From Streptomyces sp. Root431 (GTDB lineage: Bacteria > Actinomycetota > Actinomycetes > Streptomycetales > Streptomycetaceae), in NCBI RefSeq assembly GCF_001426585.1, contig NZ_LMEI01000013.1, positions 524,462-588,461 of the forward strand: a stretch of 64,000 bases of DNA, in the 5' to 3' direction. Numbering within the stretch: position 1 is the first letter of the stretch; every line of letters begins with the position of its first letter. A program made the translations under genes and the position numbers. This document shows positions 17,143 through 62,747 of this stretch, piece after piece. The notes beneath the pieces were generated by a model that was not told the origin of the DNA, made no database searches, and was given only the letters and a program-made list of their open reading frames with translations.

Positions 17143-17913
17143 CCTCCTGCTTGTTGCTGGCTCTTCGTCGACTGCGGGAACCAGTCTGACGTACGCCGCC
17201 GACACTCGGTGCTGCTCGGGGTCAAGTCGCGACGAGGGCGCGTCGGAGCTCCGGCGGCGAGTTGTGCACAGGCCCCACTTCGAAGCGGATTCCTAGCTAA
17301 CTCTAAGTGGGAGTAGTAGTAGGGCCTGTGGAAACGGTGGATAACGTCGTTTTCGCAGGTCAGGCCCAGTTTTTTGTCCACCGACCCTGTGGGTGGAACC
17401 CGTGGAAAACCAGGGCTCTCTGTGGACACCCAAAAGTTCTGCACACCCGGTACACAGGCCATGGGGAGTTCTCCCCAGCGCTGTCCCCAGCTTTACCCAC
17501 GTTCCCCACAGCCCAACCGTCTCCCTTGGTGTGACCGCTTTCACTCGACGCGGTGAGGCCGGGCGATTCGTTGCCGAACAGTGGACAGGGGTGTGGAGAA
17601 GCTGTGGGCAACCACCGGCCCCCTGTGGGCAGCCAGTGGACAACTTTCCGGGCCCCCTGTGGACGAAGATTTCATCCACAGGCTGTGGAAAGAAGTTGCC
17701 AACAAATCCACAAGGGCCTGACCTGGGGTGATGATCTGTCACCAGCCGGACCTGTGGACACAATCCGGATAACTCGACAGTCCCCACCCTGTGGACGGGA
17801 GATCATCCCCCAATCTGTGGAGAACCCGCCACCGGAACGGAGTAATCGAACACCCCGCGCTCGTACACAGCTGTGCACAGCGAACAGGGGCACCCTCGGA
17901 AGGGGTTCGAGAA
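17143..17913. other. oriC, chromosomal replication origin
   Basis: This non-coding stretch between dnaN and dnaA is packed with 9-mers related to the Streptomyces DnaA box TTGTCCACA in both orientations. Nine have a single mismatch: 17262-17270, 17374-17382, 17421-17429, 17592-17600, 17603-17611, 17635-17643, 17658-17666, 17753-17761 and 17816-17824. At least nine more have two mismatches (for example 17336, 17580, 17624, 17672, 17684, 17790). About nineteen boxes of mostly imperfect sequence is what is known for Streptomyces oriC. None inside the region is a perfect consensus. Confidence 0.93.
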
Positions 17914-19731: not shown

Positions 19732-20126
19732 GGGGCACGCTTTCTCGCAGGTCCCACGATGGTGTGGTTCTCGGGGACGGTGGGTCGAAGTCCGTGAGGA
19801 CGGGTCCGTTGAGGACAGGTGAGGACAGAACGGAAAAGACTGTGGAGTCTCACCACGGTAGTCGGGGCGGCTGACGTGGTTCAAGTTGTTGTCCACAGCC
19901 TGTGCATAATGGACCATGGCGACAGGTCGGTTTGACCGGATGGCGTAGCCGCGCGTACCGTGACCAGGTCGAGTTGTCGATGGCTGCTGCCGCCTGCCTC
20001 CGATGGGCAAAGATCACGTTTTGTGATCGCGAAGCGGTGCTATCGGGCGTTACGAGCTACTCGTGGGCGCACGGTGACAGCCAGGCGATGTCCCGCCACC
20101 ACCCGAATCATTTCTGGAGCCCCCGA
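19732..20126. promoter_or_regulatory. Divergent dnaA / rpmH promoter region
   Basis: This 395-bp gap must hold both the dnaA promoter (leftward) and the rpmH operon promoter (rightward). On the reverse strand CATTAT (19905-19910) could be a dnaA -10 element and lies a few bases from the consensus DnaA box at 19889-19897. An inverted repeat GATCACGTTTTGTGATC lies at 20012-20028. No gene is seen. Confidence 0.7.
19889..19897 (+). promoter_or_regulatory. Consensus DnaA box in the dnaA promoter region
   Basis: TTGTCCACA is a perfect match to the Streptomyces DnaA-box consensus, in contrast to the imperfect boxes of oriC. It lies about 160 bases before the dnaA start and may mediate repression of dnaA by its own product, as described for other DnaA systems. 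Confidence 0.8.
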
Positions 20127-23851: not shown

Positions 23852-23860
23852 TTGTCCACA
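23852..23860 (+). promoter_or_regulatory. Consensus DnaA box in the parA upstream region
   Basis: TTGTCCACA, a perfect Streptomyces DnaA box, lies between parS sites 1 and 2 and about 55 bases before the parA start. TTCACCCACA follows at about 23870. Binding is not proven. Confidence 0.6.
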
Positions 23861-51140: not shown

Positions 51141-52478
51141 TCAGCGTGTGGCGCCCGTGACGATCCAGCGGCCGGAGCGTGAGCGCAGCCAGAGCGTCAC
51201 CATCCGGACGGTCATCATCAGGGTCATCGCCCACCAGAGGGCGGTCAGCCCGCCACCGAGCACCGGAACGAGCAGGGCGACCGGGGCGAAGACCACGAGG
51301 GTCAGCAGCATGGCCCAGGCCAGATAGGGGCCGTCGCCCGCGCCCATGAGGACGCCGTCGAGGACGAAGACGACCCCGGAGATCGGCTGGGACAGCGCGA
51401 CCACCAGCAGGGCGGGGAGCAGGGTGTCCTGGACGGTGGTGTCGCTGGTGAAGAGCGGGACGAACAGGGGGCGGGCGGCGATGAGGAGCGCGCCGAGCAC
51501 CACTCCGGAGAGCACGCCCCACTGGACCATGCGTCGGCAGACCTGGCGGGCGCCCTCGGCGTCGTTCGCACCCAGGTAGCGGCCGATGATGGCCTGGCCG
51601 GCGATGGCGATCGCGTCGAGGGCGAAGGCCATCAGGCTCCACAGGGACAGGATGATCTGGTGGGCGGCGACCTCGGCGTCACCCATCCGGGCGGCGACGG
51701 CGGTGGCGATCATCAGGACCGCGCGGAGCGAGAGCGTACGGACCAGGAGCGGGGCGCCGGCCTGGGCGGAGGCCCGGATGCCGGCCGCGTCCGGGCGGAG
51801 GGAGGCGCCGTGGCGCCGGGCACCCCGTACGACCACGAAGAGGTAGGCGACGGCCATGCCGCACTGGGCGATGACCGTGCCCCAGGCCGAGCCGGCGATC
51901 CCCAGGCCGGCGCCGTAGACCAGTCCGACGTTGAGCGCCCCGTTGACCGCGAAGCCGCCGATGGCCACGTAGAGCGGCGTACGGGTGTCCTGGAGGCCCC
52001 GCAGGACGCCGGTGGCGGCCAGGACGACCAGCATGGCGGGGATGCCGAGGCTGGAGATCCGCAGATAGGTCACGGCATAGGGGGCGGCGGTGTCGGAGGC
52101 GCCGAAGAGGTCGATGAGCCAGGGGGCGGTGGGCAGGGTAAGGGCGACGACGGCGGCGCCGAGGAGGAGGGCGAGCCAGATGCCGTCCATGCCCTGTCGG
52201 ATGGCGGCCTGGAGGTCGCCCGCGCCGACGCGCCGGGCGACGGCCGCCGTGGTCGCATAGGCGAGGAAGACGAAGACGCTGACGGCGGTGGACAGCAGGG
52301 CGGCGGCGATCGCGAGACCCGCGAGCTGGGGGGTTCCGAGGTGGCCGACGATGGCGCTGTCGACCATGAGGAAGAGCGGCTCGGCGACGAGCGCACCGAA
52401 GGCCGGCAGGGCGAGGGAGACGATCTCGCGGTCGTGCTGTCGGCGGACGGCCTTGGAGGTCGCGGGGGCCTGGATCAT
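51141..52478 (-). CDS. MATE-family efflux transporter (DinF-like)
   Basis: The protein is 445 residues with 12 predicted membrane helices; EIVSLALPAFGALVAEPLFLMVDSAIVGHLGTPQLAGLAIA is a typical MATE start. DinF-type members export drugs or metabolites using Na+ or H+ gradients. ATG 52478. Substrate unknown. Confidence 0.92.
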   Translation of the reverse strand: MIQAPATSKAVRRQHDREIVSLALPAFGALVAEPLFLMVDSAIVGHLGTPQLAGLAIAAALLSTAVSVFVFLAYATTAAVARRVGAGDLQAAIRQGMDGIWLALLLGAAVVALTLPTAPWLIDLFGASDTAAPYAVTYLRISSLGIPAMLVVLAATGVLRGLQDTRTPLYVAIGGFAVNGALNVGLVYGAGLGIAGSAWGTVIAQCGMAVAYLFVVVRGARRHGASLRPDAAGIRASAQAGAPLLVRTLSLRAVLMIATAVAARMGDAEVAAHQIILSLWSLMAFALDAIAIAGQAIIGRYLGANDAEGARQVCRRMVQWGVLSGVVLGALLIAARPLFVPLFTSDTTVQDTLLPALLVVALSQPISGVVFVLDGVLMGAGDGPYLAWAMLLTLVVFAPVALLVPVLGGGLTALWWAMTLMMTVRMVTLWLRSRSGRWIVTGATR

Positions 52479-52902
52479 GGGGTCAATCTAATCTTCCACA
52501 GGTAAGCGACACAATGGCCAAGAGGCTATTACTTTACTGGGGAGCGGGGCTTCGGGTGTGGGCCGTTTGTTCTGATCTTGGTCCGGGTGGAGAACTTTTT
52601 CTCCCCCACAGGCCGTGGATGGAAAAGATGCAGGTCAGATGGGTAAGGGTGGGGGTGTTATGAGTTTGTCCACATGGCTGTCCCCCGCTCCGTGCACAGG
52701 ATCCGGGGAGTTCTCCACAGCATCTGGCCGTTCACCCACAGGCCCTGTGGATAACCAGATTGGCTGACGCTCCTCGCGGGCCTACCGTGGTCCGGCGCCC
52801 GACGCGCCAGCAGCGGTCGCAAAGCCACTTGTTGATGAAGGCCGTGGCGTAAGAAAGAGTGGCACGGCGAGGTCCGCGGAGCGGACGGGAGGAGGTGGCT
52901 TG
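52479..52902. promoter_or_regulatory. MATE/dnaB divergent gap carrying a DnaA-box cluster
   Basis: This 424-bp gap holds two perfect boxes, TTGTCCACA (52666-52674) and TGTGGATAA (52746-52754, reverse of TTATCCACA), and weaker ones at 52602-52610 (TCCCCCACA), 52711-52719 (TTCTCCACA) and 52732-52740 (TCACCCACA). It must also contain the dnaB promoter. Confidence 0.75.
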
Positions 52903-54384
52903 GTGAGCGTTACCGAGCCCATGGACGACCCCTGGGCCGACAGCGGACCAAGCGACCGGTTGCCCACCCGTACCCGAGGAGAAGGACGCGGCCGGGGCCG
53001 CGGGCGCGACGACCAGCACGAGCGCGGCAACGACGGCCCGTGGGACGGTGGACTCTCCGGATTCGAGCGCGTCCCCCCGCAGGACCTCGACGCCGAGCAG
53101 TCCGTCCTCGGCGGCATGCTGCTCTCCAAGGACGCCATCGCGGACGTCGTGGAGATCATCAAGGGCAACGACTTCTACAAGCCCGCCCACGAGACCGTCT
53201 ACGCGGCGATCCTCGACCTGTACGCCAAGGGCGAGCCCGCCGACCCCATCACCGTCGGCGCCGAACTCACCAAGCGCGGTGAGATCACCCGCGTCGGCGG
53301 CGCCTCCTACCTCCACACCCTGGTCCAGTCGGTACCGACCGCGGCCAACGCCTCGTACTACGCCGAGATCGTCCACGAGCGCGCCGTCCTGCGCCGCCTC
53401 GTGGAGGCCGGCACCAAGATCACGCAGATGGGCTACGCGGCCGACGGAGACGTCGACGAGATCGTGAACTCGGCCCAGGCCGAGATCTACGCGGTCACCG
53501 AGCAGCGCACCACCGAGGACTACCTGCCGCTCGGCGACATCATGGAGGGGGCCCTCGACGAGATCGAGGCGATCGGCTCCCGCAGCGGCGAGATGACGGG
53601 TGTGCCGACCGGCTTCACCGACCTCGACTCGCTCACCAACGGTCTGCACCCCGGCCAGATGATCATCATCGCGGCCCGTCCCGCCATGGGTAAGTCGACC
53701 CTCGCCCTGGACTTCGCCCGGGCGGCCTCGATCAAGCACAACCTGCCCAGCGTCATCTTCTCCCTCGAAATGGGCCGCAACGAGATCGCGATGCGCCTGC
53801 TCTCGGCGGAGGCCCGGGTCGCGCTCCACCACATGCGCTCCGGCACGATGACCGACGAGGACTGGACGCGCCTCGCCCGCCGCATGCCCGATGTCTCCCA
53901 GGCGCCCCTGTACATCGACGACTCCCCCAACCTGTCGATGATGGAGATCCGGGCGAAGTGCCGCCGGCTCAAGCAGCGCAACGGCCTCAAACTCGTGATC
54001 ATCGACTACCTGCAGCTGATGCAGTCCGGTGGTTCGAAGCGGCAGGAGAGCCGTCAGCAAGAGGTCTCCGACATGTCGCGAAACCTCAAGCTCCTCGCCA
54101 AGGAGCTGGAGCTGCCGGTGATCGCGCTCTCCCAGCTGAACCGTGGCCCCGAGCAGCGCACCGACAAGAAGCCGATGGTCTCCGACCTGCGTGAGTCCGG
54201 CTCGATCGAGCAGGACGCGGACATGGTCATCCTGCTGCACCGCGAGGACGCCTACGAGAAGGAGTCACCGCGAGCGGGCGAGGCCGACATCATCGTCGGC
54301 AAGCACCGTAACGGTCCGACGGCCACGATCACCGTCGCCTTCCAGGGCCACTACTCCCGCTTCGTGGACATGGCCCAGACCTGA
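52903..54384 (+). CDS. dnaB: Replicative DNA helicase DnaB
   Basis: The protein is 493 residues. An N-terminal DnaB-N domain (FERVPPQDLDAEQSVLGGMLL) and RecA-like ATPase (Walker A ARPAMGKSTLALDFA; LKLVIIDYLQLM; LSQLNRGPEQR) are complete with no intein. Partner of the DUF721/DciA protein at oriC. GTG 52903, after GGGAGGAGG, is preferred over the TTG just upstream. Confidence 0.98.
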   Translation: MSVTEPMDDPWADSGPSDRLPTRTRGEGRGRGRGRDDQHERGNDGPWDGGLSGFERVPPQDLDAEQSVLGGMLLSKDAIADVVEIIKGNDFYKPAHETVYAAILDLYAKGEPADPITVGAELTKRGEITRVGGASYLHTLVQSVPTAANASYYAEIVHERAVLRRLVEAGTKITQMGYAADGDVDEIVNSAQAEIYAVTEQRTTEDYLPLGDIMEGALDEIEAIGSRSGEMTGVPTGFTDLDSLTNGLHPGQMIIIAARPAMGKSTLALDFARAASIKHNLPSVIFSLEMGRNEIAMRLLSAEARVALHHMRSGTMTDEDWTRLARRMPDVSQAPLYIDDSPNLSMMEIRAKCRRLKQRNGLKLVIIDYLQLMQSGGSKRQESRQQEVSDMSRNLKLLAKELELPVIALSQLNRGPEQRTDKKPMVSDLRESGSIEQDADMVILLHREDAYEKESPRAGEADIIVGKHRNGPTATITVAFQGHYSRFVDMAQT

Positions 54385-62520: not shown

Positions 62521-62686
62521 GTCCGCCCCCTCCCGGCCGTGCGGCCGTTCGACTCAGGCGGTCGGCTGACTGCGCCTCAGGACCGTCCAACTATAAATAA
62601 GTCGATAGGCCTCTGTCGCTACCGTGATTGGACACTGACGCACAGTCAACTAGCCTTGTTCAGGCGGTCTCCGCGCGTGGAACCGA

Positions 62687-62725
62687 GGGCGCTCCGAGCC
62701 ACGAGGGGGGAGGCTCGGAGCGCCC
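62687..62725 (-). terminator. Terminator of the cystathionine gene
   Basis: Perfect 14-bp stem GGGCGCTCCGAGCC (62687-62700) / GGCTCGGAGCGCCC (62712-62725), 22 bases after the stop codon. Confidence 0.9.
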
Positions 62726-62747
62726 CGTTCCTGCCGCCACCGGCACC

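Follow-up and report, generated by a model that had tools for sequence, protein, structure and literature searches.

A DnaA-box cluster at a nearly fixed distance from a predicted dnaB promoter in Streptomyces suggests control of the replicative helicase gene by DnaA

An association of DnaA with dnaB is already known from mycobacteria, where DnaA binds upstream of the gene, and from Caulobacter, where dnaB is a member of the DnaA regulon. DnaA of Mycobacterium tuberculosis pulled down five regions, one of them upstream of dnaB, and ChIP-seq analysis of M. smegmatis identified homologues of the same five regions. The same study reported that the M. tuberculosis DnaA variant I282T showed weaker binding upstream of dnaB together with lower dnaB expression (PMC7738170). 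The Caulobacter dnaB gene has predicted DnaA boxes upstream (Hottes 2005, as told in PMC8203912), and the review that relates this finding also lists the dnaA promoter of Streptomyces lividans as autoregulated (PMC8203912). The mycobacterial study was the only report on DnaA at an actinobacterial dnaB gene found in our search, and neither the box-to-promoter spacing described below nor its distribution nor its agreement with the dnaA promoter was met in the literature searched, most subscription papers lying outside that search in both cases.

The window analysed here is a 64,000-nucleotide stretch of the genome of Streptomyces sp. Root431 that covers the Streptomyces oriC neighbourhood, with dnaN and dnaA, both on the reverse strand, located on either side of oriC. 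The dnaB gene and a divergent gene encoding a MATE family transporter flank a 424-bp spacer (52479-52902) that contains the box region under study (Table 1). The start of dnaB was placed at a GTG codon, and many dnaB homologues aligned from residue 2 of a TTG-started open reading frame. The cluster beside dnaB consists of high-scoring boxes outside oriC, 34.7 kb away from dnaA as measured from the end that faces oriC, and it was excluded as the origin itself because the dnaA-dnaN spacer with its 11 boxes occupies that role. The window also contains a match to the Rfam small RNA Scr3920 at 62604-62728 (118.9 bits).

Table 1. Features of the window discussed in the text (positions count from the first nucleotide of the window).
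Feature	Position	Strand	Remarks
oriC	17262-17824		dnaN/dnaA spacer; 11 boxes with one mismatch to TTGTCCACA/TTATCCACA
-10 of dnaA promoter, TACCGT	19855-19860	-	28 bp from box pair
dnaA promoter box pair, TTGTCCACA (+) / TTATGCACA (-)	19889-19909		28 bp to TACCGT -10
MATE family efflux transporter gene	51141-52478	-	divergent from dnaB; TIGR00797, 344.9 bits
Predicted MATE promoter	-10 52485-52490; -35 52509-52514	-	by eye from alignment
Degenerate DnaA box, TCTTCCACA	52492-52500	+	conserved; in spacer of predicted MATE promoter
Apparent decayed box, TCCCCCACA	52602-52610	+	three mismatches; 64 bp before A
DnaA box A, TTGTCCACA	52666-52674	+	about -129 to -121 from predicted dnaB start
DnaA box B, TTCTCCACA	52711-52719	+	45 bp after A; about -84 to -76
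DnaA box C, TCACCCACA	52732-52740	+	two mismatches; 21 bp after B; about -63 to -55
DnaA box D, TTATCCACA	52746-52754	-	inverted (TGTGGATAA on + strand); 14 bp after C; about -49 to -41
Predicted -35 of dnaB promoter, TTGGCT	52760-52765	+	from window aligned with 39 relatives
Predicted -10 of dnaB promoter, TACCGT	52783-52788	+	17 bp after -35
dnaB, replicative DNA helicase	52903-54384	+	GTG start assumed

A strict DnaA box was defined as TTNTCCACA, and three such boxes were found within 89 bp of the spacer. By comparison, 5000 dinucleotide shuffles of the 424-bp spacer contained a mean of 0.011 strict boxes and a maximum of two, so that none of the 5000 reached three, and the cluster proposed in the preliminary description can be regarded as genuine. 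Its two perfect boxes, TTGTCCACA and TTATCCACA, were found where it had placed them (boxes A and D). It had further counted at least three weaker boxes; when up to two mismatches to TTGTCCACA/TTATCCACA were allowed, two of these (boxes B and C) fell inside the interval 52602-52754, while the third, TTCTCCACC at 52586 on the reverse strand, fell just outside it. Both perfect boxes were also said to be stronger than any box in oriC, which held with TTGTCCACA/TTATCCACA as the standard, but oriC contains two copies of TTCTCCACA (at 17592 and 17816) and the perfect actinomycete box according to one review is TT(G/C)TCCACA (PMC4285127). Nor does this ranking apply genus-wide, as TTGTCCACA or TTATCCACA was found in the oriC stretch of three other Streptomyces genomes (G022, G102 and G122). 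Among relatives, the position of box A was mostly occupied by TTGTCCACA or TTGTTCACA and that of box C often by TCGTCCACA or TCATCCACA. The site at 52602 looks like a decayed box, because many relatives have TTCTGCACA there, at the same 64 bp before box A. No hairpin signal was detected in the strand (z 1.55, with 189 of 200 shuffles folding at least as well).

Conservation of the boxes was surveyed in several sets of dnaB loci, which may share species. The first Streptomycetaceae set comprised 39 loci, including one Kitasatospora and one Saccharothrix record, and it was counted together with 41 other actinobacterial loci over 600 bp upstream of dnaB, while 800 bp were counted in all later sets, including the set from outside the class. 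Every one of the 39 Streptomycetaceae loci contained at least two strict boxes in the 600 bp (97 boxes), the remaining 259,675 bp of these loci contained none, and the 23,400 bp upstream of dnaB in this family contained no copy of the reversed motif. A lack of conservation between close relatives, which the preliminary description had named as speaking against its reading, was thus not observed. At least one strict box was present in all 12 further Streptomyces loci (800 bp, own genome counted), in 37/41 of the other actinobacterial loci of the first set (600 bp), in 20 of 36 further class members (800 bp; two boxes in 11/36) and in 18 of another 21 non-Streptomyces loci, all 21 of which had a box with at most one mismatch. 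The 40 further class stretches consisted of the 36 of the 36-locus count, of L146, L149 and L150, which were counted in the later survey of 12 Streptomyces and 21 other loci, and of L152, which was dropped as it was without the dnaB N-terminus; L151, a probable DnaB paralogue (55% identity), was kept. Outside the class Actinomycetes and within the same phylum, one strict box was found in 4/20 dnaB loci (800 bp) and two strict boxes in none of these 20 loci.

These counts bear on whether the cluster could be an artefact of chance or base composition. Single DnaA-box-like 9-mers do occur throughout the 6.5 Mb genome (69 strict sites, vs 13 for the reversed pattern), but a chance origin of the cluster was rejected on the basis of the shuffles and of its presence in all 39 Streptomycetaceae loci, and with the reversed motif absent from upstream of Streptomycetaceae dnaB and no strict-box pair at the 20 loci outside the class, we regard this explanation as scarcely credible.

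The same survey bears on the neighbouring gene. Of 34 loci from outside Streptomycetaceae that lack a divergent MATE gene, 30 still contained one or more strict boxes, which indicated that the boxes stay with dnaB when its upstream neighbour changes, and a role mainly for the MATE gene was rejected on this basis. It is accordingly very unlikely that the boxes serve the MATE gene, even though a conserved degenerate box is located inside the predicted MATE promoter and the flank of this box forms a 19-nt inverted repeat (79%) with the region of box D. The predicted MATE promoter itself (52478-52514, reverse strand) is possibly leaderless.

Directly after box D, the arrangement TTGGCT-17 bp-TACCGT was among the well-kept columns of the alignment of the window with 39 relatives, and the predicted -10 would place the dnaB transcription start near 52795. 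A distance of 28 bp separates the end of box D from this conserved -10-like TACCGT, which agrees with the published HrdB -10 pattern of A at -11 and T at -7, and the S. coelicolor dnaB gene (SCO3911) belongs to the modelled HrdB regulon (PMC6344877). A generic sigma-70 scan of the region returned no promoter, and the assignment of a dnaB promoter is for that reason based on conservation.

Box spacing, whose conservation in other Streptomyces had been put forward as a check, was nearly fixed in 40 Streptomycetaceae sequences when up to 900 bp upstream of dnaB were analysed. The 45-bp same-strand step from A to B was counted 39 times, the 21-bp step from B to C 35 times and the 14-bp step from C to D 31 times (the last for boxes with at most one mismatch), and a same-strand spacing of 64 bp was counted 18 times. 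The most gene-proximal box was followed by TANNNT at 28 bp in 34/40 and at 29 bp in 6/40 of these sequences. Among the 73 other loci with a box, the most gene-proximal box gave 28 TANNNT matches at 28-32 bp and 7 at 42-43 bp, with few at any other distance.

When any box with at most one mismatch was considered, TANNNT was located 28-32 bp on in all 40 Streptomycetaceae sequences (window included) and in 35 of 77 other Actinomycetes loci, four of which lacked any box and were counted as misses. Random positions gave a mean of 7.1 of the 77 loci with this spacing and a maximum of 14 in 1000 runs, a control that ignores kinship, as related sequences are not independent, while the reversed-motif control yielded one locus with the spacing, from 42 boxes in comparison to 349 real boxes. 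Microbacterium accounted for 9 of the 35 non-Streptomycetaceae loci with the spacing, and a count by lineage, again outside Streptomycetaceae, found the spacing in 17 of 46 genera or families (10/22 named labels and 7/24 unnamed families). Two other distance bins were raised in the lineage count, 38-42 bp (15/46) and 53-57 bp (14/46), both of which we interpret as probable additional boxes in these promoters; the 43-47 bp bin was intermediate (10/46) and those at 18-27, 33-37, 48-52 and 58-62 bp were not raised (2 to 4 of 46 labels each). Inverted boxes were located 28-29 bp and forward boxes 30-32 bp from TANNNT. The 28-32 bp spacing was further present in 12/12 additional Streptomyces loci, in 6/21 additional non-Streptomyces loci and in 3 of 20 loci outside the class, and the inverted pair with a promoter was also found in Arthrobacter koreensis (L044), a Nocardioides (L054) and an Arthrobacter (L058). 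The commonest same-strand box spacing in non-Streptomycetaceae dnaB regions was 12 bp (29 pairs). Overall, the values of 40/40 in comparison to 35/77, 17/46 and 6/21 indicated that the spacing is general in Streptomycetaceae and frequent but not universal elsewhere in the class.

The boxes, the promoter-like elements, their spacing and their conservation are features present in the DNA, while binding of DnaA in Streptomyces sp. Root431, the promoter itself, activation as the sign of control and any feedback are inferred. We consider it likely that the region is a dnaB promoter under DnaA control. Such control had already been suggested in the preliminary description, and it found partial support in the fixed box-promoter spacing in Streptomycetaceae and part of the class, in the retention of boxes whatever the neighbouring gene, and in the published mycobacterial DnaA binding upstream of dnaB (PMC7738170). 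DnaA would occupy boxes A to D, probably cooperatively, and the C-D inverted pair would position it at about -63 to -41, directly upstream of the weak -35 TTGGCT, with the TACCGT -10 presumably served by the housekeeping sigma factor. DnaA would then alter transcription of the helicase gene, most likely upward when active DnaA is plentiful, and helicase supply would thereby track the initiator level. Loading of the replicative helicase is one of the committing steps in the initiation of replication.

If DnaA controls dnaB, activation appears to be the likelier sign; it is favoured by the mycobacterial mutant data and by boxes that end just upstream of the -35. Alternatively, DnaA may repress dnaB from this site in a negative feedback like that of dnaA autoregulation. 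Repression would fit the dnaA promoter, which is listed as autoregulated in S. lividans (PMC8203912) and has the same box-28 bp-TACCGT module, but the boxes at dnaB stop short of the -35, with the core promoter left uncovered, and in M. tuberculosis weaker DnaA binding accompanied lower dnaB expression (PMC7738170), so that we think repression rather unlikely.

Upstream of dnaA, the order TTATGCACA-3 bp-TGTGGACAA-28 bp-TACCGT runs from 19909 down to 19855, and this layout was repeated with small box changes in G022, G102 and G122, the 28-bp step being present in 4/4 Streptomyces. A further 24 genomes of the class yielded 29 box-to-TANNNT pairs at dnaA, of which 11 had a distance of 26-28 bp, and 6/24 of these genomes passed the 28-32 bp test. 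A module shared by dnaA and dnaB thus appears clear in the four Streptomyces and is only suggestive class-wide. As the same box-28 bp-TACCGT module is found at both genes, dnaA and dnaB may respond together. A broader interpretation is that Streptomyces dnaA and dnaB share one DnaA-read promoter module, understood as a box pair whose end is about 26-32 bp upstream of the -10, which much of the class Actinomycetes would carry as an older trait and through which DnaA would set both levels and tie helicase supply to initiation by way of transcription. Given a DnaA-read dnaB promoter with dnaA-like spacing, initiator and helicase would be produced in a fixed relation to one another. This interpretation is weakened by the lineage count, with the spacing in 17/46 genera or families outside Streptomycetaceae, and we advance it with considerable doubt.

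The cluster may instead reflect titration of DnaA, as one of several high-affinity sinks around oriC, which would reduce the amount of free DnaA and hold initiation back. DnaA-box clusters in S. coelicolor repress untimely initiation according to a 2006 study, as cited in later work (PMC4585315, PMC10950094). The Root431 genome contains 22 strict boxes in 204 kb around oriC, with clusters near -56, -40, -22, +35, +73 and +88 kb relative to the oriC-side end of dnaA, and clusters were found at similar distances in G022 and G102 and in smaller number in G122, a comparison of distances only and not of flanking genes. A fixed position relative to the promoter and its -10, as the dnaB boxes have, is compatible with titration but not required by it, and the boxes remain beside dnaB after a change of neighbour. 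Furthermore, G121, from another family, had only the oriC and dnaB clusters within 100 kb, and in two Microbacterium genomes, in which dnaA was not located, no pair within 300 bp other than that at dnaB was present near the presumed oriC cluster. G087 had the dnaB pair plus one other cluster, and G147 and G134 had single strict boxes only (100 kb around). The cluster distribution in other genomes leans towards a role tied to dnaB, and we judge titration on its own to be a tenable but lesser possibility. Position does not separate a link to dnaB from a link to oriC, as dnaB lies near dnaA, at 21.8-143 kb, in all 38 genomes whose dnaA and dnaB share a contig without wrap-around (60 searched for DnaA). 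This count left out contig ends, genes on different contigs (e.g. G008, G030) and genomes with no clear dnaB place, and for several intein-bearing dnaB genes one part only was taken as the position.

Both roles could also be combined, in that a DnaA-controlled dnaB promoter would in addition hold a few DnaA molecules at a place near oriC that is doubled early. Boxes A and B, which do not belong to the promoter-proximal pair, are kept as well, and DnaA boxes are crowded around oriC in Streptomyces, while the interval 52602-52754 contains four boxes only (at most two mismatches); we see this combination as a serious possibility, if short of an even one.

Several other box groups were observed around oriC. 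Further clusters in the Root431 genome were located on contig C13 at about 486.5, 502.1, 520.3, 615.8 and 630.0-630.3 kb (L177, L178, L180, L181), and the cluster at 630 kb adjoins serS. The oriC-proximal clusters of the 2006 S. coelicolor study were reportedly named H69, H24 and D78, and the cluster beside serS, about 88 kb away, may be D78. At C13:502123-502145 (L177), two TTGTCCACA boxes are 14 bp apart and one has TANNNT 28 bp on toward a 516-aa open reading frame, which makes this pair a possible further DnaA-read promoter; G022 has a match similar to this pair at -37.7 kb. A perfect TTGTCCACA is located at 23852-23860 of the window between rsmG and a parB-family gene, and G022, G102 and G122 have a TTGTCCACA-TTCTCCACA pair about 6 kb from dnaA. 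In Microbacterium, a TTATCCACA pair just under 1 kb apart was found away from the presumed oriC group (G005 C1:974615/975591; G006 C4:659743/660718).

In comparison with known systems, the mycobacterial dnaB region belongs to the same class and concerns the same gene as the present locus, with DnaA bound upstream of it; the accessible part of that study describes no box-to-promoter spacing and no Streptomyces, and the spacing is the feature found here (PMC7738170). Caulobacter shares with Streptomyces the same gene with predicted boxes upstream, in its case within the DnaA regulon, but is a member of a different phylum, and common descent of the two arrangements is doubtful, as two strict boxes were found at none of the 20 loci outside the class and within the phylum. 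The double DnaA boxes of E. coli (PMC11317965), datA and DARS likewise have paired or clustered boxes, and the 12-bp spacing of non-Streptomycetaceae dnaB boxes corresponds to the 3-bp gap of the E. coli double boxes (PMC11317965). The autoregulated dnaA promoter of Streptomyces is like that of dnaB in that a box pair ends 28 bp before a TACCGT -10, but the two boxes of its pair begin 12 bp apart (3-bp gap) in comparison to 14 bp (5-bp gap) at dnaB, and the dnaB promoter, unlike the dnaA promoter, has two additional upstream boxes.
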